Below the pieces are notes generated by a model that had not been told where the DNA came from, searched no databases, and saw nothing but the letters and a program-made list of their open reading frames with translations. Positions 11,881 through 63,421 of a stretch of 64,000 nt of DNA are shown one piece after another. The stretch's first letter is position 1, and every line of letters starts with the position of its first letter. Both the position numbers and the translations under genes were made by a program. Source of the stretch: Pelagibacteraceae bacterium AG-470-E16 (GTDB lineage: Bacteria; Pseudomonadota; Alphaproteobacteria; Pelagibacterales; Pelagibacteraceae); contig QCSF01000002.1 in NCBI GenBank assembly GCA_003209195.1, positions 62,001 to 126,000 of the forward strand. Reading direction: 5' to 3'.

Positions 11881-13365
<1,485 letters not shown>

Positions 13366-47920: not shown

Positions 47921-48430
47921 ATGGCTTGGACAAATGATAAAACAGAACAACTTAAAAAATTGTGGGCAGAGGGTCATACCGCAAGTCAAATCTCTAGGAT
48001 GCTAGGTGATGATATTTCACGTAACGCTGTTATAGGAAAGGCTCACAGACTAAATCTAGCAGGCAGAACTCAATCAAGAATGATCTCTTCTCCAAGAATT
48101 AATAACAATCAACATCAAAACAAAAAAGATAAATATCAAAATAAGGTGCGAAGACCAAGAGGTCTAAGGGCTATAGTTATAGAGAAAAACTTTGAGCCTG
48201 AAAATCCAACATCATTGGAAAATTTAACGGATAAAACATGTAGGTGGCCAATTGGACATCCAGATGAAAAAGGTTTTTATTTTTGTGGTAGAACACCAAT
48301 GGATGAGAGAGTATATTGCAAACTCCATGTACTTCATGCCTATCAACCGCGTGGTCAAAAAAATGAGGAACCTCATAGAAACATCGATCAAGCTCAAAAT
48401 TTTACACAAAAGAATATTAAACGCGCTTAA
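47921..48430 (+). CDS. gcrA: GcrA family cell cycle regulator
   Basis: A 169-residue GcrA. The N-terminal helix-turn-helix opens MAWTNDKTEQLKKLWAEG and continues SASQI-like (TASQISRML) to RNAVIGKAHRLNL. A conserved C-terminal region (CRWPIGHPDEKGFYFCGR) binds the sigma70 region. GcrA activates promoters with N6-methylated adenine sites in alphaproteobacteria. It overlaps the convergent SET-domain gene by 14 bases. Confidence 0.93.
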   Translation: MAWTNDKTEQLKKLWAEGHTASQISRMLGDDISRNAVIGKAHRLNLAGRTQSRMISSPRINNNQHQNKKDKYQNKVRRPRGLRAIVIEKNFEPENPTSLENLTDKTCRWPIGHPDEKGFYFCGRTPMDERVYCKLHVLHAYQPRGQKNEEPHRNIDQAQNFTQKNIKRA

Positions 48431-48896
48431 GCCTAGCTTTTTTTGTTTTAGCAAATTTGCGGTTGATTCTCCAACGTTGATCATCTCTTACAATGAAACC
48501 GCAACAATTCTTTGAACCACATTTACAACGAAACTGTTTATAGTCCTCATCGAACCCAAAACCATAATCGTAAGAAAGCTCGTCACCTTTTTTAATATCT
48601 TGGATAGCTAAAATCCAAATCTTACCTTTGATGATATCAACTTCGCAATTTGGATTACACGAATGGTTAATGTATTTTGCAGTATTTGATTTTATATCAC
48701 CATCAAGAACAATTTTTTTATTTAGAGTAAATAAATAAATTGCTTTGGAATTATCAAACCGATCATCTTCTTCAACCTGCTTATGAGTGTACGGCTTGCC
48801 TTTATATTCAATTACCTTATCACCTTTGTTAAAATTTTCTCCTGCAAATAAACCCCAATTATTAATTCCAGATTTTTTTCTATAAAATTTAGACAT
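48417..48896 (-). CDS. SET-domain lysine methyltransferase-like protein
   Basis: A 159-residue SET protein. Key segments are all visible: GLFAGENFNKGDKVIEY at the start, YINHSCNPNCEV (the catalytic NHSCxPN), DELSYDYGF, and a post-SET-like cysteine cluster (CKCGSKNCCGFI). These are features of eukaryotic histone methyltransferases, found sporadically in bacteria. It would methylate a protein lysine; the target is unknown. It shares one base with the EamA gene, so it ends the phosphonate operon. Confidence 0.88.
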   Translation of the reverse strand: MSKFYRKKSGINNWGLFAGENFNKGDKVIEYKGKPYTHKQVEEDDRFDNSKAIYLFTLNKKIVLDGDIKSNTAKYINHSCNPNCEVDIIKGKIWILAIQDIKKGDELSYDYGFGFDEDYKQFRCKCGSKNCCGFIVRDDQRWRINRKFAKTKKARLKRV

Positions 48897-49744
48897 TATT
48901 GGAAAATCTTAATAGCAACGCATCCTGATAAAATCAATATCGCAGAAATTAAAGCTAAAAAACCACCCTTCTCTTTGAGAATAAATAATCCATAAATTGA
49001 TGCAAACAAAATACTCACTTCTCGTAAAGCAGCAATAACCGCGATTTTACCTACAGTAAAACCATATACCGCTGGTATATAAGAATAGATACTGCATGAG
49101 GCAGCAGCAAAAATACTTATAAAATTTTTTTTAAAATAAATAAAATTAAGATTATGTTTTTTAAAAGTGAAATAAGAAATTAAATTAAAAATAAAGCCAT
49201 CCAATGCAAAGTAATAAATCAAATAAATAAAAGCATTAGATAGTCTTGCTCCTTTTGCGTCTATTGTAGAATATGCAACAATAATCGCAGCAACTAGTAA
49301 ACTATATATTAAGCCTTTAATATTAATTTTTTTCAAATTTCCTTCAGAAAAAACTAGTAACAATATACCTAAGGAAATTAGAATTATAGATAGCTGATTA
49401 GATAAAGTAAGATTTTCATCAAATAATATTGGTGTTAATGCTAATAAAATTAATGAAGGTAATCCACGTGCTATGGGGTATCCATAGGACAGACCAGAAT
49501 AATCATAAACTCTACATAAAAATATTTTATAAAATACGTGAATAAAAATTGTCATCAAAAAAAAAGGCCAAGCTATTTTTGGAAGAGGCTCGATAAAGAA
49601 TAACAAAGGAAACATTATGAAACTTCCAAGAAGAGTGAAGGCTCTAGTAAACTTTATTTTATCATTGGATTTTTTTAAAAGAATGTTCCATGAAACATGT
49701 CCCAAGGCACCCGTAAGAATGGCTAAAAATAGAATATTATCCAA
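48896..49744 (-). CDS. EamA/DMT-superfamily transporter
   Basis: A 282-residue protein with about ten hydrophobic helices and two internal repeats (SYGYPIARGLPSLILL in one, VGKIAVIAALREVSILFA in the other). It belongs to the drug/metabolite transporter superfamily. It starts one base after the iron alcohol dehydrogenase gene ends. It might move a phosphonate or its product, but the substrate is unknown. Confidence 0.85.
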   Translation of the reverse strand: MDNILFLAILTGALGHVSWNILLKKSNDKIKFTRAFTLLGSFIMFPLLFFIEPLPKIAWPFFLMTIFIHVFYKIFLCRVYDYSGLSYGYPIARGLPSLILLALTPILFDENLTLSNQLSIILISLGILLLVFSEGNLKKINIKGLIYSLLVAAIIVAYSTIDAKGARLSNAFIYLIYYFALDGFIFNLISYFTFKKHNLNFIYFKKNFISIFAAASCSIYSYIPAVYGFTVGKIAVIAALREVSILFASIYGLFILKEKGGFLALISAILILSGCVAIKIFQ

Positions 49745-49745
49745 C

Positions 49746-50861
49746 CTAATATCCTAAGAACTCTTGTGCTTCTAAAACTTTTTTATAATTACCAATAAAA
49801 TTTTTTCCTCTTTCACCACCAAAAGCATCTTTAACAATCAAATCCCAGTCATTGGCATTTCCAATGTAATCTTTAAAATTAGTCGAAACCTCTAAACTTT
49901 TAAAAAAATTTTCGAGTTCTTTTGGTGCATTCTCAAAATTCGGAAATAGTGCTTTTAAATTTCTGTCACAGGTTTGATCTAGACCTTGAACTGATTTAAG
50001 AATGATTGGTAAAGTAAATGAGCAAGCTATGCCATGAGGCACTTTATATTTTAAAGTTATTGGATATGAAATAGAGTGAGATATCGCTGTTTTAGTGTTT
50101 GAGAACGCCAAACCCGCAAACATAGATGCTCTCATAATTTCTTCTCTTAAATGAATATCACTTAAGTTGTTAATTAACTTTGGTAAATTTTTTAAAATTA
50201 TATTTATAGAATTAATTGCATGAATATTTGAAATAGGATTAGAGTTTATATTCCATATGCTCTCGAAAGAATGGGACATTGCGTCTAAAGATGTTTCGAT
50301 CGTTATTTTTTTTGGTAATGACAATGTCAATTTGCTATCAAAAATTGAGAGTTTTGAAAAAAGGCTCGTGTGTATGAGGGAATGTTTTCTTTGATTTTCT
50401 TCATCCCAAATTGTAGCCCAACATGTTAATTCACTACCAGTGCCTGCAGTTGTAGGTATTGAAATTAAATCAATATCAGTTGAAACAAAATCTTTTGTTT
50501 TCTTTTCTAAATAATCAACAGTTCTCTGAAAATTACCTTTTCCTAAAACCAAAAATTTTGCTGTGTCGATTACAGATCCTCCTCCTAACGCAATAGCGAA
50601 TTTTATATCTTTGCATTTTTCTGTGAACGATTTACATATATCTTTAAAATTCTTGTAGTCTGGATTAGGTAAAATATTATTAACAATTAATTTTGGCTCG
50701 CCTAATGCTTTGATTATCTGATTTGTGTACTGCTTAAATACGTCATCAGAGTAGGTAAAAATACAATACTCACCAACTCCAATAAGATTCTTTAATTTTT
50801 TATGATTTTCTAAAATTCCGGTCTCGAAAATTATATTTGAAGGATTTTGATATTTAAACAC
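49746..50861 (-). CDS. Iron-type alcohol dehydrogenase, probable phosphonoacetaldehyde/HEP dehydrogenase
   Basis: A 371-residue group III alcohol dehydrogenase. It has the NAD-binding GGGSVIDTAK (about residues 91-100) and metal ligands in TSLDAMSHSFES (Asp and His), TAISHSISYP (His) and VPHGIACSF (His). The features resemble the PhpC/phosphonoacetaldehyde reductase group of phosphonate biosynthesis, which interconverts phosphonoacetaldehyde and 2-hydroxyethylphosphonate. Here it follows phnY with no gap, in a degradative operon. I therefore propose it oxidizes 2-hydroxyethylphosphonate; a general alcohol dehydrogenase remains possible. Confidence 0.8.
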   Translation of the reverse strand: MFKYQNPSNIIFETGILENHKKLKNLIGVGEYCIFTYSDDVFKQYTNQIIKALGEPKLIVNNILPNPDYKNFKDICKSFTEKCKDIKFAIALGGGSVIDTAKFLVLGKGNFQRTVDYLEKKTKDFVSTDIDLISIPTTAGTGSELTCWATIWDEENQRKHSLIHTSLFSKLSIFDSKLTLSLPKKITIETSLDAMSHSFESIWNINSNPISNIHAINSINIILKNLPKLINNLSDIHLREEIMRASMFAGLAFSNTKTAISHSISYPITLKYKVPHGIACSFTLPIILKSVQGLDQTCDRNLKALFPNFENAPKELENFFKSLEVSTNFKDYIGNANDWDLIVKDAFGGERGKNFIGNYKKVLEAQEFLGY

Positions 50862-52304
50862 TTAATGCCATTTCATGTTAATATTTTTTAGGCGAGCATA
50901 ACCTTTCATCTCATCAAAACATTCTTCAACACCAATACCACTTAATTTCCATCCACCATAAGGAGCACCAGAGTAGCGTCCAGCAGTATTAACCCACACG
51001 TATCCAACTTCTGCATCCTCAGCAGTTTTCATAGCGTTGGATAATGAATTTGTTACAATCATAGTGGTCAATCCATACTGTGTAGAATTAGCAATCTTTA
51101 CCATCTCATTATAATTATCCCAATCAATGACAGAAATTACTGGACCAAAAATTTCTTCTTTGGCAATTTTCATATCAGGCTTTACATCACAGAAAATAGT
51201 TGGATTAATAAAAAATCCATTTTTTAAATCTTCAGACTTATTTTGATTTCCACCTATTAGTAATTTGGCGCCTTCATCAATACCGGATTTAATATAACTC
51301 ATCACACCTTCAAATTGTTTTTTTGATACAATTGGGCCTATTTCATTTGTTTCAATCCAAGGCAACCCAATAGGAATGGTCTTTGCTTTCTCTACTAATG
51401 ATTTTAAAAACTTATCTTTTACCTTTTTATTGACTAAAACTCGCGATGTAGAGCTACAAGACTGACCTTGTCTACTGAGGTTCATTCCTTTGATTGCTAG
51501 CCCAGCTGCAAAATCAGGATCTGCATCATCAAAAATGATAATAGGATTTTTACCTCCTAGTTCTAAGGATACATTTTTAAGCAATGGAGCAGCGCCTTTA
51601 GCTATAGCAATCCCGGTACCAACTGAACCAATTACTGCTATTCTTTTAATATCTGGATGTTCGACTAAATACTTTCCATTTTCGGGTCCGCCAGTGACTA
51701 CATTTATAAGGCCTTTAGGGAATATACCCTCAAGAAGTTCACAGAATCTTAAAGAGGAAATTGGAGCTTGCTCAGAATTTTTTATAATTAAAGAATTACC
51801 CATTAATAATGGAGCTGCTATTTTTTCAACACAAAATCTAAATGGATGATTAAAAGGATTAATTTTTAGAACAACACCGTAGGGTTGATACCTAGTAAAA
51901 TTTAAATGATTTTTTTCCATGGTAAATGTTTCTCCTTTTACTTCCCTAACTAAACCACAAAAATATCTAATATTATTTACAGTTTCTTTAACATCTTTTC
52001 TCATTCCAGTTAAAGCATTTCCAGAGTCATAAGAGTCAATCAGAGCAAATTCTTCCTCTTTCTCCAAAATTTTCTTAGCAAGTTTTTCTAAAGCTGCTGC
52101 TCTTTCGATTAGAGAAGTTTTTGCCCAAATTAATTGTGCTTTCTTTGCAGACTCAACTGCTAATTCTAATTCTTTACTATCTGATATAGGAACATCAGAT
52201 AGTTTTTCTCCATTGGCAGGATTAAATACATCGTAACGATTTTTTGAATTAAACCATTCTCCATTCACAAAGGTACCTTTAACTTTAAAAATATTCTTAT
52301 CCAT
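50862..52304 (-). CDS. phnY: Phosphonoacetaldehyde dehydrogenase-like ALDH
   Basis: A 480-residue aldehyde dehydrogenase. LELGGKNPII and the catalytic Cys in GQSCSSTSRV are present, as is the N in INPFNHPF. Length and fold fit PhnY, which oxidizes phosphonoacetaldehyde to phosphonoacetate. The name rests mainly on its position: it overlaps the phosphonoacetate hydrolase gene by eight bases and lies in the phn operon. The ALDH superfamily is broad, so the substrate is an inference from neighbours. Confidence 0.85.
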   Translation of the reverse strand: MDKNIFKVKGTFVNGEWFNSKNRYDVFNPANGEKLSDVPISDSKELELAVESAKKAQLIWAKTSLIERAAALEKLAKKILEKEEEFALIDSYDSGNALTGMRKDVKETVNNIRYFCGLVREVKGETFTMEKNHLNFTRYQPYGVVLKINPFNHPFRFCVEKIAAPLLMGNSLIIKNSEQAPISSLRFCELLEGIFPKGLINVVTGGPENGKYLVEHPDIKRIAVIGSVGTGIAIAKGAAPLLKNVSLELGGKNPIIIFDDADPDFAAGLAIKGMNLSRQGQSCSSTSRVLVNKKVKDKFLKSLVEKAKTIPIGLPWIETNEIGPIVSKKQFEGVMSYIKSGIDEGAKLLIGGNQNKSEDLKNGFFINPTIFCDVKPDMKIAKEEIFGPVISVIDWDNYNEMVKIANSTQYGLTTMIVTNSLSNAMKTAEDAEVGYVWVNTAGRYSGAPYGGWKLSGIGVEECFDEMKGYARLKNINMKWH

Positions 52305-53541
52305 AATTTAAGGCTAAATCAAAGATATCATAATTTTTTAATTCACCCTTTGATTTATAATTTCCATTTAATTTTTTTGAAATGAATATCGGTATATCGC
52401 TTTCACCCCGACCACCATGAGTTCTAAGTGGTTCTTTTAATTTAGTTAAATCATGGTCAGTTTTCTTTTTTCCAATTGCAAATTTTTCATTTGACGTAAA
52501 AACAATATCACCAATACGATCTTCTGGTTGATGTAACTTTTCAACACTATCTTTATGATTTAAAACTAAATCAACACCGTTAATTGTTTTTAAAAAAACC
52601 ATGACTTCATTTATTTTCGATTTATCTTTACAGTAAATGGTTACAAAAGATCCAAAGGCACCATGATGAACAACATATGGATCTGTAATTGTACAAACTA
52701 CATTGCATGCATCTTTTCCAAATTTACTATCCAGCTCATCTTGGAGGTAGATAACATTCAATGAACCGTCTTCATTTGTTTTACCTTTCATTCCATGATC
52801 AGCAGTAAAAGATATTTCGCACCCTAAGTCATATAGCTGTTTTAAATATCCATCTATCATATGATAAAACTTGTTAGCTATTTCACTACCTGGTGCACAT
52901 TTATGCTGGATATAATCGGTAGTTGATAAATACATGATATCAATTTTTTTTTTTTTAATAATCTCAACACCCGCTGCAAAAATAAATTCAGACAAATCTG
53001 AGCTATAAACTTCAGGTAGCGGTTTTTTCACAAGATCTAGAACATTTTCAATTCTGTTATCTTTCATATTAGCGCTATCAGCTTTTTCTGATGAAAAACA
53101 AATCGCTTTTTTTAAATTTTTTCCAAGCAGTTTTCTTAATTTATCTTTAGCCGTTATGACTGCAACTTTTGCACCAGCTCTCTCAAAAGCCTCAAAAATC
53201 GTATTTGTTCTAAGAAATGAGTCATCATTCATTAGTGTTTCTGTTCCAAGTTCAGGATCTAAAAAAAAGTTACCACATATGCCATGAACATCAGGTGTTG
53301 AACCCGTTACAATTGACATATTGTTTACATTTGTAAAACTTGGCATTGCACATTTGCCGACTTCATAAGTAGATTTTGAAATCATTGATTTCATAAAAGG
53401 CATCAAGCCCATTTGAATTGCTGTATCTATATAGCCCTTTGGACCTGGCTCACTACCATCTAAACAAATGATAATGCTAGTTTTTTTTGGCCAATTATAA
53501 GTTTTTCCATTTACTGAAATTGTTTGATTTAATGATGTCAT
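52297..53541 (-). CDS. phnA: Phosphonoacetate hydrolase
   Basis: A 414-residue alkaline-phosphatase-superfamily enzyme. The nucleophile Thr is in PSFTNVNNMSIVTG (about T70), with zinc ligands in ICLDGSEPG (D28), STTDYIQH, FTADHGMKG and LRTHGGRGE. HGICGNFFLDP also matches PhnA of the PhnWAY pathway. It splits phosphonoacetate into acetate and phosphate. It is unrelated to the E. coli PhnA zinc-ribbon protein. It follows the PiT gene by 37 bases. Confidence 0.9.
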   Translation of the reverse strand: MTSLNQTISVNGKTYNWPKKTSIIICLDGSEPGPKGYIDTAIQMGLMPFMKSMISKSTYEVGKCAMPSFTNVNNMSIVTGSTPDVHGICGNFFLDPELGTETLMNDDSFLRTNTIFEAFERAGAKVAVITAKDKLRKLLGKNLKKAICFSSEKADSANMKDNRIENVLDLVKKPLPEVYSSDLSEFIFAAGVEIIKKKKIDIMYLSTTDYIQHKCAPGSEIANKFYHMIDGYLKQLYDLGCEISFTADHGMKGKTNEDGSLNVIYLQDELDSKFGKDACNVVCTITDPYVVHHGAFGSFVTIYCKDKSKINEVMVFLKTINGVDLVLNHKDSVEKLHQPEDRIGDIVFTSNEKFAIGKKKTDHDLTKLKEPLRTHGGRGESDIPIFISKKLNGNYKSKGELKNYDIFDLALNYG

Positions 53542-53578
53542 GTATTTTTTATTGCACTCCTATAATCAATATTTAACA

Positions 53579-54589
53579 TTATATTTTAATTATACCAAAT
53601 AAATAACTTGTAAAGAAAACAGATATTGGGATTAAAAACCAAGATAAAATAATTTTGATTGTATGAGTGCGCTTCACTTCTCTAAATTTATTAAAAGATG
53701 CAATTCCAATGATGCTGGCAAAAGTAATATGGGATGCTGATAGCGGCATGGCAAGCATATTAAACGGTAAAATAGAATTTAAAAGATTAATAACCATTTG
53801 AGAAGAAAAACAAATCAAAATTATGATTTGTGTAATTAATATTGATAAAGCTGCAACCGGTTTTATTTTTGATATTTGAGAACCGACACTTTGAGCAATT
53901 TTTTCTGAAAATAATAAAGCACCAATTCCAATAAACAATGATCCAAAAAAATATAATTTTTCTTCTGAGATAATAAATAACAAGTCGAGAAATTTAATAT
54001 TTAAATCTAAATATGGCGAGTAAATTCCAACAATAGATGCGGTAAGGTTAGAGCCTAAAGCAAAAGCTGCTAAACAACCAAATAAGACTAAACTAATTCT
54101 AATTTGGTAATCAATTTGAAATAAGTTTAATTTAAAAAAATTAATTATTACATTTATTAAATAACAAAATAATATTGATAGCAAAAATGCCAAGATTGGC
54201 GTTGCAATCCAGAAGTAAATTAATTTTTTTAATAAATCTAAATCAAAATTAACATTATTCACTATTGCAAAACCAAAAATAGAAAAAATTAATGATTGTG
54301 AGATTGAACTTGGTATTTGAAATTTCAAAGATATTATTGTGATAATTATCACAGGCAATAATATCTTAAAAATATCTTTAATGTTTGGATATTCGATTAA
54401 TAGTTTGGAATAAACAGCAGATGGATATTTAGCATTTATAATTGCCCCTAAAATTATAAAAATAAAAAAGAAAATAATCGCATATTTAAATTTTAACATT
54501 TTTGAACCAATAGCTGACCCAAAAACATTTGCACCGTCATTTGCGCCTACAATAATAGCTAGTATCACAATCAGTAATATTTCAAACAT
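53579..54589 (-). CDS. PiT family phosphate transporter
   Basis: A 336-residue inner-membrane protein with about ten helices. It has the two PiT signature repeats: GANDGANVFGSAIGSK (about residues 14-30), and near the C-terminus LAMPLSASHITFASIIG. The N-terminal DGANV matches the GANDxAN motif. PiT proteins are reversible metal-phosphate or proton symporters. It lies 3 bases after a PhoU-like gene, its usual partner, inside a phosphonate operon. Confidence 0.9.
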   Translation of the reverse strand: MFEILLIVILAIIVGANDGANVFGSAIGSKMLKFKYAIIFFFIFIILGAIINAKYPSAVYSKLLIEYPNIKDIFKILLPVIIITIISLKFQIPSSISQSLIFSIFGFAIVNNVNFDLDLLKKLIYFWIATPILAFLLSILFCYLINVIINFFKLNLFQIDYQIRISLVLFGCLAAFALGSNLTASIVGIYSPYLDLNIKFLDLLFIISEEKLYFFGSLFIGIGALLFSEKIAQSVGSQISKIKPVAALSILITQIIILICFSSQMVINLLNSILPFNMLAMPLSASHITFASIIGIASFNKFREVKRTHTIKIILSWFLIPISVFFTSYLFGIIKI

Positions 54590-54592
54590 AAT

Positions 54593-55228
54593 CTAATTTT
54601 TTGAAGAGGATATGATTAGTCTATCAGCTACGTCCTCAGAAAGATTTGCAACTTCGTCCATAATTTCCACAAAATACCTTAAATGAACTTTCGTTGCTAA
54701 ACCATTTTCTTTATTAGAAAAAATAATATTTTTTAAATCTGTACTAATCTTATCTGCTTTACTTTCAACTTTTGAAACCTGTAAGCATTTTTCAATCGTA
54801 ATTTTTTTGTCTACAAAAAAACTTCTGGACCCTTCTATTAACAACGATATGCACTCTGATGCAAAATCACAAAGTTTTAAAAAATTAGAATTTAATTCTA
54901 CACTTACATTTGGCTTTTCAGTATTAAAACTATGGGCATTTGCTTGAATTTGACCTGGTATCTTATCTAAATTTTCAAGCATTCCTAATACATCTCCACG
55001 TAGATCTGGAATTAATGTTTCTTGATAAATTTTTCTTTCAACATTTCTTCTAATTTTATCACATTCACTCTCAAGATCAGAAATTTCGTTCGTAATTTTA
55101 TTTACCTCTTGGAATTTTTTTTGGAAATAATTCTCTAATAATGTTTTAAATAGTATGTTTATTTTTAAAATATTATCTAAAAAAATGTTGATGGACTCTA
55201 TAAGTTCTTTTTGATGATTTTTTAACAT
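54593..55228 (-). CDS. PhoU-like (DUF47) protein, PiT accessory
   Basis: A 211-residue helical protein with the DUF47/PhoU-like pattern. ISDLESECDKIRRNVERKIYQETLIPDLRGDVLGMLENLDKI is near residues 47-90, and a second helical repeat follows. DUF47 proteins accompany PiT transporters and probably regulate phosphate flow. It overlaps phnE2 by one base and precedes the PiT gene. Confidence 0.88.
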   Translation of the reverse strand: MLKNHQKELIESINIFLDNILKINILFKTLLENYFQKKFQEVNKITNEISDLESECDKIRRNVERKIYQETLIPDLRGDVLGMLENLDKIPGQIQANAHSFNTEKPNVSVELNSNFLKLCDFASECISLLIEGSRSFFVDKKITIEKCLQVSKVESKADKISTDLKNIIFSNKENGLATKVHLRYFVEIMDEVANLSEDVADRLIISSSKN

Positions 55229-56025
55229 TACTGAGTTTCCTTATAAATCTTATCTCTCATGTAAGCAGATAAAGCCTCTGAAAAAATGACAAGAACAATA
55301 ATTGATACTATGATTGCAGAAGTTCTTGCATATTCTAATTGTAATACATTTCTTTTTAAATACCATCCCATGCCACCAGCACCAAAAAATCCAATAATTG
55401 TAGATGCTCTAAAACATACATCCCATGTATAAATTAAAATACCTGTAAAAGCTGTTTTTACTTGTGGCCAAACACCATAAGCAAATACTTGCATCTCGTT
55501 TGCGCCATTTGATCTAATTGTTTCAACTAATTTCATATCTACATTTTCTAATTCTTCTGAAAATAATTTTCCAAAAAAACCAATACAGTACATTGTCAGG
55601 GCCATTGTACCTGCTAACATACCAAAACCTACAATAGTGACAAACAGAATAGTCCAAATTGTTTCATGGATTGACCTTGAAAAAATAATAAAAAATTTAC
55701 CAATGACATAACCAACTCTCTTACTTGGTGTGATATTGGATGCAGCAAAGTATGCTAATATTGATGCAATAATAACGCCAATAATTAAACCTAGATATCC
55801 CATTTGAACGCTGTCAAGTATTGAAGCAAGATAACCTGGTTCTAATGCATAGGGTATATCAACTGGGTAATAACGGGTAGCTATTAAATTTCCAAAACGG
55901 CCTAGCGCTGAAAAAAATCTTTGAAAATCTATTCCAAGATACAGAAAGCATAAATAGATCACAAAGAAAAATAAACTTATATAAATAAAGTTTTTCGCAT
56001 TATTTCTTTTATAAATATCGTTCAT
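55228..56025 (-). CDS. phnE: Phosphonate ABC transporter permease, second copy
   Basis: A 265-residue permease with five to six membrane segments. SRSIHETIWTILFVTIVGFG and the EAA-type loop (ANEMQVFAYGVWPQV) match PhnE. It follows the first phnE by one base; the two likely form a heterodimeric channel with PhnC. Confidence 0.92.
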   Translation of the reverse strand: MNDIYKRNNAKNFIYISLFFFVIYLCFLYLGIDFQRFFSALGRFGNLIATRYYPVDIPYALEPGYLASILDSVQMGYLGLIIGVIIASILAYFAASNITPSKRVGYVIGKFFIIFSRSIHETIWTILFVTIVGFGMLAGTMALTMYCIGFFGKLFSEELENVDMKLVETIRSNGANEMQVFAYGVWPQVKTAFTGILIYTWDVCFRASTIIGFFGAGGMGWYLKRNVLQLEYARTSAIIVSIIVLVIFSEALSAYMRDKIYKETQ

Positions 56026-56026
56026 A

Positions 56027-56839
56027 TTAAATTATTCTCTTTCTCAAATAATGTGATAAAATTTCACCAATTACTATTAAGCCAACAATAAATAATATAA
56101 CAGTTGTAACTCCTGGATAATTAGACATATGCATTTGTCTAAAAAAAGCCAAACCTAATCCGCCGGCTCCTACTAAGCCCATTACTGCTGATCGTCTTAT
56201 ATTAATGTCCCATTCAAAAATTATAGTACCAATCACGGTAGGTAATATCTGTGGTATAATACCATAATACATTACATCAAAACCTGATCCACCTGCAGCT
56301 TTTATAGCCTCGATTGGTTTTTTATCAGCACCCTCAATACTCTCAGCTATAATTTTTGATATAAAACCGACTGATCTAAATGCGAGTGCGAGAATTCCTG
56401 GTAAAGCACCTAACCCTACTGCGCCAACAAAAATTAATGCCCAAATAATTTCATGAACAGAACGGCTAATAGTCATTAAAAATCTTGCAATACTAAAAGT
56501 AAACATACCGAGTGGTGTAACATTTTTAGCCCCAAGCCAAGCAACCGGTAAAGATAATAATAATCCTAGCATTGTCCCAAGACATGCCATTAGAAAAGTT
56601 TCAAATGCTGGTAATATTAGAAGTGGCATTATACTCACATCTAAACCTATGAAATAAGACAATTGCTCTAAGATTGCTTGTCCTGAACCAATACGATGCC
56701 AGTCAGTATCTAAAATAATTATAAAATATACACTTAAAAAAATTATGGATATTAAAGATGTATAAAAAATTATCTTTTTATAAATTTTAGAAGAATTTTG
56801 TTTTGAATAATCTTCTATACTTAGTTGATATCCACTCAT
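56027..56839 (-). CDS. phnE: Phosphonate ABC transporter permease, first copy
   Basis: A 270-residue PhnE-type permease. SRSVHEIIWALIFVGAVGLGALPG and the EAA-type loop GSGFDVMYYGIIPQILP are visible. Membrane segments begin near residue 20. It starts 9 bases after phnC. Confidence 0.92.
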   Translation of the reverse strand: MSGYQLSIEDYSKQNSSKIYKKIIFYTSLISIIFLSVYFIIILDTDWHRIGSGQAILEQLSYFIGLDVSIMPLLILPAFETFLMACLGTMLGLLLSLPVAWLGAKNVTPLGMFTFSIARFLMTISRSVHEIIWALIFVGAVGLGALPGILALAFRSVGFISKIIAESIEGADKKPIEAIKAAGGSGFDVMYYGIIPQILPTVIGTIIFEWDINIRRSAVMGLVGAGGLGLAFFRQMHMSNYPGVTTVILFIVGLIVIGEILSHYLRKRII

Positions 56840-56848
56840 ATTAATATT

Positions 56849-57607
56849 TTATAAAACCTCAAATTTGTAAAGATCTTGCAAAACACCATTGGTTAATTTA
56901 GCTGTAACATCATCAAATTTTTTCTTTCCATCTTGAAGACCCAGTATCTTATTGGCAAATTGCTTAGCAAGTTCGATATTATGAATATTACATAAAACAG
57001 GTATGTTAAGTTCATTGGCAATACCTTTAATTAGTTCCATCATTTCACCTGCAATTTTTGGATCTAAACTTGAGGTTGGCTCATCAACTAAAAGCATCTC
57101 TGGCTCCTGCATCAATGCTCTAGCAATACCAACACGCTGCCTTTGTCCACCACTTAACTGGTCTACTCTTTTATTCGCAAAATCTTTAAGCCCAACCTTT
57201 TCAATAAATTCTATAGATCGACCTACATCTTTTTTACTGAACATTCTAAACAAGCTGGTAAAAGTATTCATATAACCAAGTCGCCCAGTTAAAACGTTAT
57301 CTATAACTGACATTCGATCAATTAAATTAAATTCTTGAAAAATCATTCCAATTCTTCTTCTTACATTTCTAAGTTTTTGCCCTTTAAGATTTAACAATTG
57401 TTCACCTTTGAAGTTTACTTCTCCACTATTGGGGTTAGCTAATTTATTAATACATCTAATCAATGAAGATTTTCCAGCTCCACTTGGGCCAATAATTGCA
57501 TAAAAATCATCTTTCATTACTTGAAACGAAATATCAAATAAGACCTGCGGTCCCCCTTTGGTGTATGTTAAATTTAAATTTTGTACCTCTAAAACTTTTT
57601 CACTCAT
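56849..57607 (-). CDS. phnC: Phosphonate ABC transporter ATPase
   Basis: A 252-residue ABC ATPase: Walker A GPSGAGKSSLIR (about residues 39-50), signature QLSGGQRQRVGIARAL, Walker B LLVDEPTSSLDP. Match to PhnC is strengthened by its neighbours. It starts 76 bases downstream of phnD, beyond a stable hairpin. Confidence 0.94.
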   Translation of the reverse strand: MSEKVLEVQNLNLTYTKGGPQVLFDISFQVMKDDFYAIIGPSGAGKSSLIRCINKLANPNSGEVNFKGEQLLNLKGQKLRNVRRRIGMIFQEFNLIDRMSVIDNVLTGRLGYMNTFTSLFRMFSKKDVGRSIEFIEKVGLKDFANKRVDQLSGGQRQRVGIARALMQEPEMLLVDEPTSSLDPKIAGEMMELIKGIANELNIPVLCNIHNIELAKQFANKILGLQDGKKKFDDVTAKLTNGVLQDLYKFEVL

Positions 57608-57628
57608 AAATTTTTTTTACCTTTAATA

Positions 57629-57680
57629 TCCCCTGTGCGCTCATAAAATTTATAAGCGCACAAGATTGAATTTTTGGGGA
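57629..57680 (-). other. Stable hairpin between phnD and phnC
   Basis: An 8 bp G/C-containing stem (TGTGCGCT/AGCGCACA, 57634-57662) continues inward with A/T pairs, and outer TCCCC/GGGGA pairs (57629-57633 with 57676-57680) lengthen it. No T-run follows on the minus strand, so it is not a classical terminator. It probably stabilises phnD mRNA and lowers the downstream genes, giving excess binding protein. Confidence 0.6.
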
Positions 57681-57683
57681 CTA

Positions 57684-58589
57684 TTATTTTTTGTTTTTCT
57701 TCTTAAATTCTGCCTTAGCTTTCGCTAAAGTTCTAATCACATCATAATCTTTGTCTGACATAGCAACAAATTTAGATGATTTTAGATTATCTAAGAACTT
57801 CTTAGCTCCAGGGTCGTTACCCAGATCTAAGAAAGTTGATCTGATAGCTTTTTTAATCGGATCACATAATTTTCCACTGTAAACAAACGGATCTTGTGGA
57901 ACTGCTGGTGATCTCCATAAAATATTAAAGTCAGATAACTTAACTTTGCCTTTTGAAACAACGTTATCAAATCGGTGACTAGCGACAAAGCCAGCATCAA
58001 TTTTACCACTATGAACAGCTAAAGTTGTTAAATCATGACCACCTGTGTAAACAATTCTTTTCCAGAATTTATCTGCATCAGTTTTCATACTTGGAGCCCA
58101 AACAACTCTTGGAATTAAATCTCCAGAAGTGCTTCCAGGGTCAGCGTGACCAACCGTTGCACCTTTTAAAGATTTTTGAGTTGTGAACTTAGATCCTTTT
58201 TTTGTAATCAACACTGATTCATATCCAGGACCTTCTTTTTGCATGAAGCCTTTTTTCTTCGCGTATGTTGCGAAAACTTCAATTGATTTGTCTTTTTTCT
58301 TTGCCGTGATGTATCCATATGGACCTAAAACTGCAACGTCAACAAATCCACCAATTAATGCTTCAGCAACTGAAGCGTATGAAGTTGGCATATAGAACTC
58401 GATTTTTTTTCCAGTATTTGCTTTTAATTTTTTTAATACTGGTCTGTATAAATCAAGCTCAAATGACGACTCCTCTGTTGGTATAATTGAGAATCTTAAT
58501 TGCTTGGGATCCTTACACTTTGCATATGCAAAGTTTGTCCCAAGAAAAAGAGCCACAAACAATACCAATACTTTTCTTACTATTTGCAT
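57684..58589 (-). CDS. phnD: Phosphonate-binding periplasmic protein
   Basis: A 301-residue substrate-binding protein with a signal peptide (about residues 1-24, cleavage after FAYA). KQLRFSIIPTEES is the typical start of PhnD/PhnS-like proteins; GPYGYITAKKK and ATVGHADPGSTSGDLIPR form the ligand site region. It is the first gene of the phn operon. A strong ribosome binding site (AAAGGGGA) lies 5 bases before its ATG, unusual in this window and fitting high expression. Confidence 0.93.
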   Translation of the reverse strand: MQIVRKVLVLFVALFLGTNFAYAKCKDPKQLRFSIIPTEESSFELDLYRPVLKKLKANTGKKIEFYMPTSYASVAEALIGGFVDVAVLGPYGYITAKKKDKSIEVFATYAKKKGFMQKEGPGYESVLITKKGSKFTTQKSLKGATVGHADPGSTSGDLIPRVVWAPSMKTDADKFWKRIVYTGGHDLTTLAVHSGKIDAGFVASHRFDNVVSKGKVKLSDFNILWRSPAVPQDPFVYSGKLCDPIKKAIRSTFLDLGNDPGAKKFLDNLKSSKFVAMSDKDYDVIRTLAKAKAEFKKKNKK

Positions 58590-58658: not shown

Positions 58659-58718
58659 ATAAAAGTATCTTTAAGAATTAAAGATTGATTATAAAAATAT
58701 ACCCTAGGTTGTATCAAA

Positions 58719-59480
58719 ATGGTAAAAGAATTTGTTAGAATACTTGGCTGCGGCAGCTCTCAAGGTGTTCCTAAGATGGATGGGAGTTGGGGAGATTGTA
58801 AAAAGCATAAAAAAAATATTAGGACAAGATGTTCAATATTTGTAAAAATCAACAAATCTAAATTTATAATTGATACTTCTCCAGATATCAGATCACAATT
58901 TTTGAAAAACAAAATTTACGATATTGATTTCGCACTTTTCACTCATGCTCATGCAGATCATATACTAGGGATAAATGAGCTAAGGACTTTTTATTTAAAA
59001 TATAAAGAGAAATTTAATATTTACCTCACTAAACATACTGAAAAGAGTTTAAAAAAGATGTTCAAATACCTTTTTATAAATCAAAAAAACTACCCTGCAG
59101 TTTTAAAAGCTAATATTTTAAAGAAAAAAAATAAAATTAAAAATATAAAAATAGAAACAATTAAAGTTAGTCATGGGACCATGCAGACTATAGGCTTTAA
59201 AATAAACAAATTTGCTTATATTCCTGATTTTAAAAAAATAGAAAAAACTGAATTAAAAAAATTAAAAAGTCTTGATGTATTAATTATAGATTGTTTTAGA
59301 TACAGATCCCATAACACACATGTTAATTTTACTGAATGCTTAGAATATATTAAACTAATCAATCCAAAAAGAGCATATTTAACAAATATGTATCACGATG
59401 TAGACTATTTTAAATTAAAAACAAAAATTAAAAATAACAAGATTTTTCCTTGTTACGATGGTTTAAATATAAAATTATAA
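58719..59480 (+). CDS. MBL-fold metallo-hydrolase, PhnP-like
   Basis: A 253-residue metallo-beta-lactamase-fold protein. The metal motif is THAHADHILGI (about residues 75-85), with further ligands in VSHGTMQ and the C-terminal NMYHDVDY. The N-terminus (GCGSSQGVPKMDGSWGDC) is typical of the PhnP-related family. E. coli PhnP acts on 5-phosphoribosyl cyclic phosphate from C-P lyase, but many alphaproteobacteria carry such a gene outside phn clusters. It is divergent from phnD; no C-P lyase genes are in the window. Confidence 0.85.
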   Translation: MVKEFVRILGCGSSQGVPKMDGSWGDCKKHKKNIRTRCSIFVKINKSKFIIDTSPDIRSQFLKNKIYDIDFALFTHAHADHILGINELRTFYLKYKEKFNIYLTKHTEKSLKKMFKYLFINQKNYPAVLKANILKKKNKIKNIKIETIKVSHGTMQTIGFKINKFAYIPDFKKIEKTELKKLKSLDVLIIDCFRYRSHNTHVNFTECLEYIKLINPKRAYLTNMYHDVDYFKLKTKIKNNKIFPCYDGLNIKL

Positions 59481-59539: not shown

Positions 59540-59953
59540 ATGAAAAAAATATTATTTATTTGTACAGGAAATTCTGCAAGGTCTATTATATCTGAATGCC
59601 TTTTAAATCAATTGGGAGTAAATAGATATCAAGCATATAGCGCTGGATCAAAACCAACGGGTGAGGTCAATCCCTATTCAATAAAAGTTTTAGAAAAAAA
59701 TAATATATATTATGAAAAAGTTTCAAGTAAAAGTTGGGATAATTTTTCAGATACGAAGTTTAATACTATTGTTACAGTTTGTAACAATGCAGCAAACGAA
59801 ACATGCCCTGTTTATCCTGGATCGCCAAATAAATTACATTGGGATCTAGAGGATCCTGATGCTTTTAATGGAAATGATGAAGAGAAATTAAATGAATTTC
59901 AAAGAATATTTGATCAAATTCATGAACGTATTAAAAAGGAATTCATAAATTAA
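59540..59953 (+). CDS. arsC: Arsenate reductase, LMW-phosphatase type
   Basis: A 137-residue protein with the P-loop CTGNSARS (residues 8-15, Cys nucleophile) and the segment VCNNAANETCPVYPG holding the further Cys residues of thioredoxin-coupled arsenate reductases. It reduces arsenate to arsenite. It overlaps the aquaporin gene by one base; the arsC-aqpS pairing occurs in rhizobia as an arsenite-exit channel. Confidence 0.88.
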   Translation: MKKILFICTGNSARSIISECLLNQLGVNRYQAYSAGSKPTGEVNPYSIKVLEKNNIYYEKVSSKSWDNFSDTKFNTIVTVCNNAANETCPVYPGSPNKLHWDLEDPDAFNGNDEEKLNEFQRIFDQIHERIKKEFIN

Positions 59954-60603
59954 TGAACAAAAATATAAAAAAATATTTTTTAGAATTTCTTGGAACTTTT
60001 ATATTACTTTTATCCATTGTTGGTTCAGGAATAATGGGTGCTAACCTTTCAAATAATGAAAGTGTAACATTAATAGCTAATGCAATCTCGATTGGTCTAA
60101 TTCTTTTCGTATTAATTTCATCTTTTAGATCCATATCAGGCGCTCACTTTAATCCAGCAGTAACCATAATGTTAGTACTTATGAAAAAAATGAAATCCCA
60201 AGAAGGAATTTTTTATATTTTTTTACAAATAACTGGAGCTTGCTTAGGGGTAATTTTCGCAAATTATCTTTTTGGTCTAGATGCAATTCAACAGGCAGCT
60301 AAAATTCGAAGTGGGGAAAGCATATTTATATCAGAAATTTTTGCGACATTTGGTTTATTATTTCTTATACTTTTGAATGGAAGAAAAAGCGACTTTGCCA
60401 TTGGTGCAGTTATTGGTTCATATATTACATCTGCAATTTGGTTTACCTCCTCTACCTCTTTTGCCAACCCAGCTGTTTCAATAGCTAGAAGTCTTACAGA
60501 TACTTTTACTGGTATACATTTTTCTAATGTACCAATGTTTATTATCGCACAATTAATATCAATTGGTTTAGTTCTTATTGTATTTAAAAAAATTTTTAAA
60601 TAA
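59953..60603 (+). CDS. aqpS: Aquaglyceroporin, AqpS-like
   Basis: A 216-residue MIP channel with six helices. The first NPA motif is in SGAHFNPAVTIM (about residues 57-68) and the second in SFANPAVSIARSL. Placement directly after arsC suggests it lets arsenite or a methylarsenical leave the cell, as described for AqpS. Glycerol transport is the alternative. Confidence 0.88.
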   Translation: MNKNIKKYFLEFLGTFILLLSIVGSGIMGANLSNNESVTLIANAISIGLILFVLISSFRSISGAHFNPAVTIMLVLMKKMKSQEGIFYIFLQITGACLGVIFANYLFGLDAIQQAAKIRSGESIFISEIFATFGLLFLILLNGRKSDFAIGAVIGSYITSAIWFTSSTSFANPAVSIARSLTDTFTGIHFSNVPMFIIAQLISIGLVLIVFKKIFK

Positions 60604-62092: not shown

Positions 62093-63421
62093 TTATGAGT
62101 ATTTTCTTTTGTCAATAAAATCAATTAAACCTTTTTGTTCTTTTGATAATAATGTTTTGGATTTTAAAACATCATACATTTTCTGCAGATTACTTAACGT
62201 ATCAACGTCAATAAGTGCAAAATTACTTTTTTTTGTATTGTATAAGTATTTGGTAAAATCATTTAAAACATGATCTGTTGTATAATCGACACGTGAAAAG
62301 CAACCCTCTAAATTTTTTAATTTTGTTGAAAAGCAACAATAACCCCCATCTATTGTAGGCATAATATAATTATCATAATTTTTTAAAAAATTTACAGATT
62401 CAATTAAATGTTCAGCTGTTAATTCTGGTATATCAGATCCAGACATAATTATGTTTTTTGTAAATGGTGCGCATATGTCATATACATCCTGCATTGATCT
62501 TCCAATATTTTCATTTTCTATTTTTAAAATACTATACTTTTCTAAACCAAATGACTTTAGATAATCATTTGATTTACTATTATTTACAATTACAATTTTA
62601 TTTTCATCTTGCTCTAAAGATAAAATATTAGACTTAAGAATTTTTAAGCAATGTAAATTAAACTGATCAACCAAAGCATCATCTTTCAACGTATCTCTTA
62701 ATCTTGATTTGGAGTCTTTTGAATTTGGATCTTTTACAAAAAAGCAGAAAATATTTTTAATTTTTTTTTTTTTAAATTTTTTTACCTGTGTAAAAGTTTT
62801 AAAAATATTTCTAAAAGTTTGAAATATAGACTTTTCTTGATATTTTCTAGCAGACGTAATAATTTCTCTTTTAATTTCTTTTATCTCAACACCTAGTGCT
62901 TTTGCATCCCAAACAAATTTGTGATCTTCACCTTCTCTAATATCCTCATCAAAACACCCAATTAAATTAAACAAGTTCTTATGAATTAAAAAAGATTGAT
63001 CACCAAACGGTAGATCAAATTTATTTGATCTGAAATTTGCACCAGATGCATTAATTTTATTTCTGTCATTATCAAATTTGAGTTTAAAATAACCCAATTG
63101 TTTTTTTTGTAGTCTATCTAAATCATCTCTTTCAATTTTATTAATTTGACTGTCAATATGTAAAAACCACAAATAGTCATTTTCAGCTTTCAAGGCTCCA
63201 GCATTTAATGATTTTCCTCTAGTTGATTCAGAAACTTTTATGAGTTTATTAATATTTAAATTTATTTCATTTAGCGTGTCTAATGAAAGCTCAATTTTAT
63301 CATCTAGCACTAAAATAATTTCATGCCCATAAAATTTATCCTTAAGCGCTCTTAATAATGAGAACTGTTTTTCCTCTCTAGAGGCAATAACAACTATTGA
63401 AAATTTTTTTCGAAGTGACAT
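62093..63421 (-). CDS. Two-domain glycosyltransferase (GT2 plus DUF2064), arsenosugar-type
   Basis: A 442-residue fusion. The N-terminal domain (about 1-215) is a GT2 glycosyltransferase (SIVVIASREE start, RGKSLNAGAL, FLHIDS and FGDQSFLIHK) of the TIGR04283 type. The C-terminal domain (about 225-420; FCFFVKDPNSKDSKSRL, SGSDIPELTAEHL and PTIDGGYCC) is a DUF2064/TIGR04282 type. From memory, reference annotation names both families as arsenosugar-biosynthesis glycosyltransferases. The fusion joins two proteins that are usually separate. Confidence 0.82.
   Translation of the reverse strand: MSLRKKFSIVVIASREEKQFSLLRALKDKFYGHEIILVLDDKIELSLDTLNEINLNINKLIKVSESTRGKSLNAGALKAENDYLWFLHIDSQINKIERDDLDRLQKKQLGYFKLKFDNDRNKINASGANFRSNKFDLPFGDQSFLIHKNLFNLIGCFDEDIREGEDHKFVWDAKALGVEIKEIKREIITSARKYQEKSIFQTFRNIFKTFTQVKKFKKKKIKNIFCFFVKDPNSKDSKSRLRDTLKDDALVDQFNLHCLKILKSNILSLEQDENKIVIVNNSKSNDYLKSFGLEKYSILKIENENIGRSMQDVYDICAPFTKNIIMSGSDIPELTAEHLIESVNFLKNYDNYIMPTIDGGYCCFSTKLKNLEGCFSRVDYTTDHVLNDFTKYLYNTKKSNFALIDVDTLSNLQKMYDVLKSKTLLSKEQKGLIDFIDKRKYS

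Follow-up and report, generated by a model that had tools for sequence, protein, structure and literature searches.

Which compound does a SAR11 cell take up and degrade with a phosphonate operon that joins a phosphonoacetate hydrolase (PhnA) to an iron-type alcohol dehydrogenase (ADH) and has no phnW? The question is raised by an operon in a 64,000-nucleotide stretch of DNA, here called the window, which covers bases 62001 to 126000 of contig 2 of a Pelagibacteraceae genome (969 kb, 39 contigs, 76% complete) that shares its genus with HIMB114. From sequence comparisons, we put at about 80% the probability that its ten genes serve the mineralization of 2-hydroxyethylphosphonate (HEP) to acetate and phosphate without a carbon-phosphorus (C-P) lyase. 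PhnDCEE would import HEP, and an ADH of the PsrA type, whose proposed role is supported, would oxidize it to phosphonoacetaldehyde. An aldehyde dehydrogenase (ALDH) resembling betaine aldehyde dehydrogenases, whose assignment is supported as well, would act in PhnY's stead and convert phosphonoacetaldehyde to phosphonoacetate. PhnA, a strong prediction given its family membership, would then hydrolyze the C-P bond of phosphonoacetate to yield acetate and phosphate, and the Pit and DUF47 proteins may release surplus phosphate. A first-pass annotation, made from the sequence alone, had proposed the same route from alcohol to aldehyde to phosphonoacetate to acetate and phosphate. The route survives as the best reading, backed by the context of psrA genes, the tail pocket of PhnD, ALDH residues and the G549 locus; the grouping of the ADH with PhpC, the identity of the ALDH as PhnY and the uniqueness of the operon do not.

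Results

The operon runs on the minus strand from phnD (58589) to an EamA-type gene (48896) in the order phnD-C-E-E, DUF47, Pit, phnA, ALDH, Fe-ADH, EamA (Table 1), with successive intergenic distances of 76, 9, 1, -1, 3, 37, -8, 0 and 1 bases. The genes placed at 49746-58589 by the first-pass annotation were all confirmed as open frames on that strand; DUF47 and Pit, which lie inside the operon, and EamA had been overlooked. Its assignment of PhnDCEE and PhnA held for PhnC, both PhnE permeases and PhnA, which exceed their NCBIfam cut-offs, whereas PhnD missed TIGR03431 (215.4 bits, cut-off 261.1) and passed only the broader TIGR01098 (193.5 bits, cut-off 112.05). PhnA also aligns nearly end to end with the solved phosphonoacetate hydrolase 3szy (441 bits). 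DUF47 proteins are customary partners of Pit transporters. The EamA gene starts 1 base past the ADH gene, and the family that its product resembles, TIGR03340, is named "phosphonate utilization associated."

The best family for the window ADH was TIGR03405 ("iron-containing alcohol dehydrogenase PsrA"; Phn_Fe-ADH), at 363.6 bits, followed by a family at 152.2 bits; the protein also exceeded the cut-offs of Pfam PF00465 and PF25137. In a 65-row tree, built by a quick method and carrying a long-branch warning, it fell within a 21-row psrA clade together with above-cut-off and psrA-context proteins (SH-aLRT 99). A second clade (100) united eighteen Fe-ADHs encoded beside pepM in SAR11, and 24 further SAR11 Fe-ADHs fell into a third (97). 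This separate placement rules out a grouping of the window ADH with the pepM-linked, PhpC-like enzymes of SAR11, and with it the "PhpC type" label given earlier. Searches for pepM found it over its cut-off in none of the 6 psrA-bearing genomes of the family, versus 31 of 247 overall. The window ADH has the metal ligands D193, H197, H262 and H276, an Asp-His-His-His set whose positions we take from FucO-type enzymes, and all four are kept in 21/21 core psrA rows. The ADHs of G561 and G441 (331 and 279 bits) fall outside this core clade. In G561, the gene of the outgroup ADH and one for phosphonopyruvate decarboxylase (449.7 bits, cut-off 312.5) overlap, which points to a biosynthetic setting in which phosphonoacetaldehyde would be reduced; this relative is probably biosynthetic. 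As a separate observation, all 18 pepM-linked SAR11 ADHs (L187-L204) carry Gln in place of the metal-ligand His (His197 in the window) and may bind a different metal or none.

Outside SAR11, we read the surroundings of 16 core psrA loci, comprising 8 of 9 plasmid matches and 8 of 10 non-SAR11 matches from a class survey (G441 and G561 not being core). Neighbors were taken from annotations or from blastp of open frames, a match to phnW being covered by references L109 and L110. The genes phnA-phnY stood beside psrA in 6 of the 16 loci (Leisingera, Ensifer, two Variovorax, G580 and G620) and phnX in 2 (Agrobacterium and Comamonas). Five had only phnDCE (Vibrio, G302, G333, G524 and G601; the contig ends near psrA in G302 and G333), and three had none of these (G427, G247 and Burkholderia). 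Phosphonoacetaldehyde is the compound common to the phnA-phnY and phnX settings; acetaldehyde arises with phnX alone. These settings bear on the idea that phosphonoacetate itself is imported and cut by PhnA while both dehydrogenases act on an unrelated alcohol. From pathway knowledge, PhnA alone suffices for phosphonoacetate, and the basic residue of PhnD at position 177 could bind its carboxylate. The same knowledge says that phnX, which accompanies psrA elsewhere, is inactive on phosphonoacetate. Moreover, the ADH occurs with phnA in 6/6 genomes of the family that have it, and the parallel locus of G549 again unites an ADH and an ALDH with phnA, so we consider import of phosphonoacetate highly improbable. 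Within the phnA-phnY locus of G580 (L139, 11166-14672), genes for an SBP_bac_1/8-family binding protein and a MetE catalytic-domain protein (Meth_synt_2) were also seen, followed by psrA.

A second alternative is that the operon degrades 2-aminoethylphosphonate (AEP) with an aminotransferase encoded elsewhere, the ADH having a side role such as the reduction of surplus phosphonoacetaldehyde. The source genome does contain a distant aminotransferase; at 92.8 bits it is the best phnW match in this 76% complete assembly, far under the cut-off of 400.8. The absence of PhnW from the operon, which had been noted before, thus extends to the assembly, and no phnW over the cut-off turned up elsewhere in it. 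PhnW (TIGR02326) exceeded its cut-off in none of 10 genomes, including the single-contig operon carriers G022 (HIMB114, 99% complete) and G040 (100%), and the result for these two speaks against an enzyme encoded at a distance. A survey of 385 genomes of the class (threshold E <= 1e-70 for psrA-like and phnW counts) found psrA-like genes in 12, phnA in 44 and phnW in 80. That 33 of the 44 phnA genomes carry phnW counts in favor of the AEP reading. Ten of the 12 psrA-positive genomes had phnA and 8 had phnW, always on another contig or >10 kb away from psrA. Genomes with psrA are thereby shown not to lack phnW as a rule: of the co-occurrence pattern suggested by the first-pass annotation, the link between ADH and phnA holds in the six SAR11-family carriers, and the lack of phnW does not generalize. 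Among the 11 phnA genomes without phnW, psrA was present in 3 (the window's genome, G022 and G580), and G475 has a phnW fragment at a contig edge. The other 7 had neither gene at the threshold (G261, G276, G312, G431, G525, G555 and G609), so psrA accounts for only part of the phnW-less phnA genomes. One of these seven, G431, encodes a distantly related Fe-ADH (30% to Leisingera PsrA) some 5 kb away from its phnA.

The G276 locus is informative in this respect. Its DUF47-Pit-phnA-phnY genes are followed by a FAD enzyme of TIGR03364 (338.5 bits, cut-off 285.1), not by phnW, and then by an EamA gene whose product is 45.6% identical to that of the window. The FAD enzyme sits where SAR11 has psrA, so the position flanked by ALDH and EamA resembles a slot, which suggests that the gene found there may encode the entry enzyme; this too weighs against AEP. 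The FAD enzymes PbfB, C and D of other such clusters are described as oxidizing N-methyl-AEP to phosphonoacetaldehyde (PMC10590968).

The ligand pocket of PhnD offers a second view of the substrate. In Escherichia coli PhnD, D205 and E177 are reported to be hydrogen-bond acceptors for the AEP amino group (PMC5700983, PMC12718374), and GpxB is described as having Arg/Thr at the equivalent pair, binding the hydroxyls of glycerol phosphates (PMC12718374). In 13 psrA-linked PhnDs the phosphonate-head residues persist: Y47, Y93, S127, S129 and H157 are kept in 13/13 and T128 in 12/13. Glu177 is missing from all 13, replaced by His in 7, where residue 205 is Asp, and by Arg in 6, where it is Ser. 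The window and 4/4 aligned SAR11 relatives have His177/Asp205, and none of them has the Glu177 + Asp205 pair of the AEP type. A wider set comprised 30 loci read, out of 41 matches obtained from 46 chosen genomes. Seven of these loci had Glu177/Asp205, and psrA was absent from the stretch read around each; the seven that are psrA-linked had His/Asp (3) or Arg/Ser (4), and both pairs were confined to psrA-linked loci. Arg/Asn occurred once, at the zinc-ADH locus of G549, and other pairs in 13; Lys177 was found in 2 (L218 and L231), whose stretches as read contain no psrA. The pattern argues for a ligand of psrA-linked PhnDs that would lack an amine and be compatible with a hydroxyl tail, less clearly for the His/Asp of the window than for Arg/Ser. 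With Glu177 lost in 13/13, an AEP operon becomes very unlikely, even though the window PhnD keeps Asp205.

The variation of the tail residues among psrA loci (His/Asp, Arg/Ser) also means that ligands may differ, and the same chemistry could act on a different hydroxylated phosphonate or on an ester of HEP. Among the phosphonates considered, pathway knowledge singles out HEP as the only one that yields the PhnA substrate through two oxidations of one carbon. Marine HEP is reported to be present as polysaccharide esters (PMC5649143); family-profile searches found no match to esterase families among the ten operon genes. We therefore give such a substrate only a slim chance and retain free HEP as the preferred one.

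The ALDH had been called PhnY-like, and this was not borne out. It scored 244 bits against the PhnY family TIGR03250 (cut-off 635.65), is 26-31% identical to PhnYs and lies outside the PhnY clade, which together rule out orthology; the nearest solved proteins are betaine aldehyde dehydrogenases. The nearest ALDH found beyond SAR11, that of G549, is 54.3% identical. An Arg five residues ahead of the P-[FY]-G-G motif (R443 in the window) is present in 6/6 phnA-linked ALDHs of the window type (5 from SAR11 and that of G549) and in 6/6 PhnYs, the residues of the latter being taken from alignments. At this position, four of five other ALDH relatives have His and the fifth has Tyr, so none has Arg. 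The six phnA-linked ALDHs alone also share R102, R120, R156 and E160, among other residues. The Arg residues of these enzymes fit with an anionic substrate.

The nearest operons to that of the window are in Pelagibacteraceae metagenome-assembled genomes and in Alpha proteobacterium HIMB114 (G022). Four other genomes keep the gene order from one end of the operon to the other, 2 of them with a divergent LysR gene inserted, and 3 more, whose contigs end within the operon, keep it over part. Because the order recurs in four whole and three partial loci, the operon is more than a chance arrangement. EamA adjoins the ADH gene in 4/4 other SAR11 genomes whose contig covers that side. Among 247 genomes of the family, phnA occurs in 8 and the psrA-like ADH in 6 (>360 bits; scores of 363-388, the next being 185.5). 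All 6 ADH-bearing genomes have phnA in the same operon, and in the remaining 2 phnA genomes (G012 and G055) the contig stops inside the ALDH gene. Four further genomes of the same genus that were searched were without both. Of 7 other SAR11-family loci read, 5 (L032, L033, L034, L054 and L055) have a divergent gene of the LysR type inserted between phnA and pit, its family having been checked for the L033 copy; the window, L035 and L036 have none there. With five loci having it and three missing it, the regulator has been gained or lost.

The fate of the phosphate is also addressed by the operon. HEP carries two carbons per phosphorus, so its use for carbon leaves phosphate in excess. The presence of Pit-DUF47 in the window, G620 and G276 and of a Na/Pi transporter in Leisingera suggests disposal of this surplus.

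Several observations weigh against degradation of HEP by the operon. The window ADH lies under the TIGR03405 cut-off of 423.7, as do its 5 SAR11 relatives (364.7-387.7 bits), and a C-P-cleaving gene was not found in the stretch read for 8 of the 16 psrA loci. Asp205 of the window PhnD leaves room for an aminated ligand. The ALDH comparison involved 17 sequences, with residues chosen after inspection; R443 meets the PhnY Arg in two gapped alignments and misses it in a third, so gap placement matters. The window ALDH is also without the Arg that precedes the catalytic Cys of PhnY (GQSC versus GQRC); where the aligned PhnYs conserve a second Arg, it has Glu. Lastly, the N-terminal part of the G040 ALDH is in a different frame than the remainder (L032, about 12001-12420), a break near the start that reflects a frameshift or a sequencing error.

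Table 1. Genes of the operon and a promoter-like site, in window coordinates
Feature	Position	Strand	Basis or remark
PhnD-type periplasmic binding protein	57684..58589	-	Phosphonate-head residues kept; 177 = His, Asp205 kept (E. coli mature numbering)
PhnC, ATP-binding cassette (ABC) ATPase	56849..57607	-	TIGR02315 303 bits, cut-off 266.1
PhnE permease 1	56027..56839	-	TIGR01097 237.9 bits, cut-off 216.7
PhnE permease 2	55228..56025	-	TIGR01097 229.2 bits, cut-off 216.7
DUF47/PhoU_div protein	54593..55228	-	PF01865 77.7 bits
Pit/PHO4-type transporter	53579..54589	-	PF01384 127.5 bits; possible phosphate exit, direction inferred
Phosphonoacetate hydrolase PhnA	52297..53541	-	TIGR02335 492.7 bits, cut-off 407.55
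ALDH, betaine-aldehyde-dehydrogenase-like, not PhnY; proposed phosphonoacetaldehyde dehydrogenase	50862..52304	-	Family scores, alignments
Iron-type ADH, PsrA/Phn_Fe-ADH group, GTG start; proposed HEP dehydrogenase	49746..50861	-	TIGR03405, clade, metal ligands
EamA-type membrane protein, TIGR03340-like, TTG start	48896..49744	-	TIGR03340 106.8 bits, cut-off 288.15
Promoter-like site upstream of phnD	58688..58717	-	11/12 matches; scan total 43 sites versus shuffle mean 56.7

Promoter and terminator scans were not richer than shuffles, and the promoter scan was poorer (Table 1). Upstream of the operon, an MBL-fold hydrolase gene (58719-59480) diverges from phnD; its product resembles PhnP weakly (65.7 bits, cut-off 272.25) and scores higher against a general MBL family (213.5 bits, cut-off 360). 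Beyond it, 59540-60603 and 62093-63421 hold a possible arsenic-handling cluster, with an arsC-like gene (TIGR02691 98.6 bits, cut-off 174.3), an aquaporin-family gene directly after it and, nearby, a protein resembling two families of arsenosugar-biosynthesis glycosyltransferases (120.6 bits to TIGR04283 and 68.6 bits to TIGR04282, each short of its cut-off). At the other end, a gene for a small SET-domain protein (48417-48896) shares one base with the end of the EamA gene; L033 and L035 have a similar gene close to their operon, and none was seen in L032 and L036.

Discussion

HEP is described as one of the most abundant phosphonates in marine high-molecular-weight dissolved organic phosphorus (PMC8931226), and its degradation has been reported via C-P lyase, with ethylene as a product (PMC5649143). 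If the route proposed here is true, dehydrogenases would yield acetate, phosphate and NADH without releasing a hydrocarbon gas, and the tiny genomes of SAR11 could use HEP without a C-P lyase set. According to one study, HIMB114 appeared to draw on some undetermined fraction of dissolved organic phosphorus even when phosphate was supplied, and its phosphonate gene set was called "unique and sparse" (PMC6589437). The operon makes this use directly testable in a cultured strain. A wider proposal, to which we give even odds, is that a phosphate-insensitive, C-P-lyase-free HEP pathway exists in SAR11 and other proteobacteria and was assembled more than once, with iron PsrA or zinc HpnZ, with PhnY or a betaine-aldehyde-dehydrogenase-like ALDH, and with the amine contact of PhnD replaced each time. 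Such a pathway would explain the use of organic phosphorus by HIMB114 despite phosphate.

How new is this gene set? The first-pass annotation knew of no characterized operon of this exact composition, which was too strong, since near-identical operons are present and annotated on the Leisingera plasmid pBMJM1_1 and in G620. What both share with the window is a psrA-type ADH, an ABC transporter for phosphonates, phnA and an ALDH, together with a transporter of the phosphate type, which is Na/Pi in Leisingera and, as in the window, DUF47-Pit in G620; the PhnDs of both have His177/Asp205. They differ in having a true PhnY and a divergent LysR, whereas the window has the betaine-aldehyde-dehydrogenase-like ALDH, an added EamA and no LysR in the operon. 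The G620 order, LysR, psrA, phnD-C-E-E, phnA, phnY, DUF47, Pit, thus contains the parts of the window except the ALDH type and EamA. The models TIGR03405, TIGR03366 and TIGR03340 indicate that curators had linked proteins of this sort to phosphonates before, TIGR03405 through its name Phn_Fe-ADH. A literature search, short of most subscription journals and supplements, found no published test of an HEP dehydrogenase and no origin of the name "PsrA," and terms for PsrA or HEP dehydrogenase do not occur in the review PMC10574752. In one report, oxidation of HEP to phosphonoacetaldehyde appears as a hypothetical, less likely role of another enzyme (PMC12366243), and a figure legend names a proposed "HpnWXZ" pathway (PMC8931226).

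Three further systems place the operon. The PhnW-PhnY-PhnA route for AEP meets the proposed one at phosphonoacetaldehyde and phosphonoacetate and shares PhnA, but the window would enter by alcohol oxidation, without PhnW and without PhnY. The pepM-linked SAR11 Fe-ADHs, PhpC-like enzymes of phosphonate synthesis, belong to the same iron-ADH superfamily and presumably handle the same two compounds in reverse; they differ in their separate clade and in the Gln that replaces His197. The alphaproteobacterium G549 resembles the window in phnA, phnD-E-C-E, the related ALDH and an alcohol dehydrogenase, and also has a LysR. Its ADH is, however, a zinc enzyme (HpnZ-like) of a superfamily unrelated to the iron ADH, scoring 309.9 bits against TIGR03366, "putative phosphonate catabolism associated alcohol dehydrogenase" (cut-off 328.1). 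The kind of gene set is therefore already known by annotation; what is new is its SAR11 form with a substitute ALDH.

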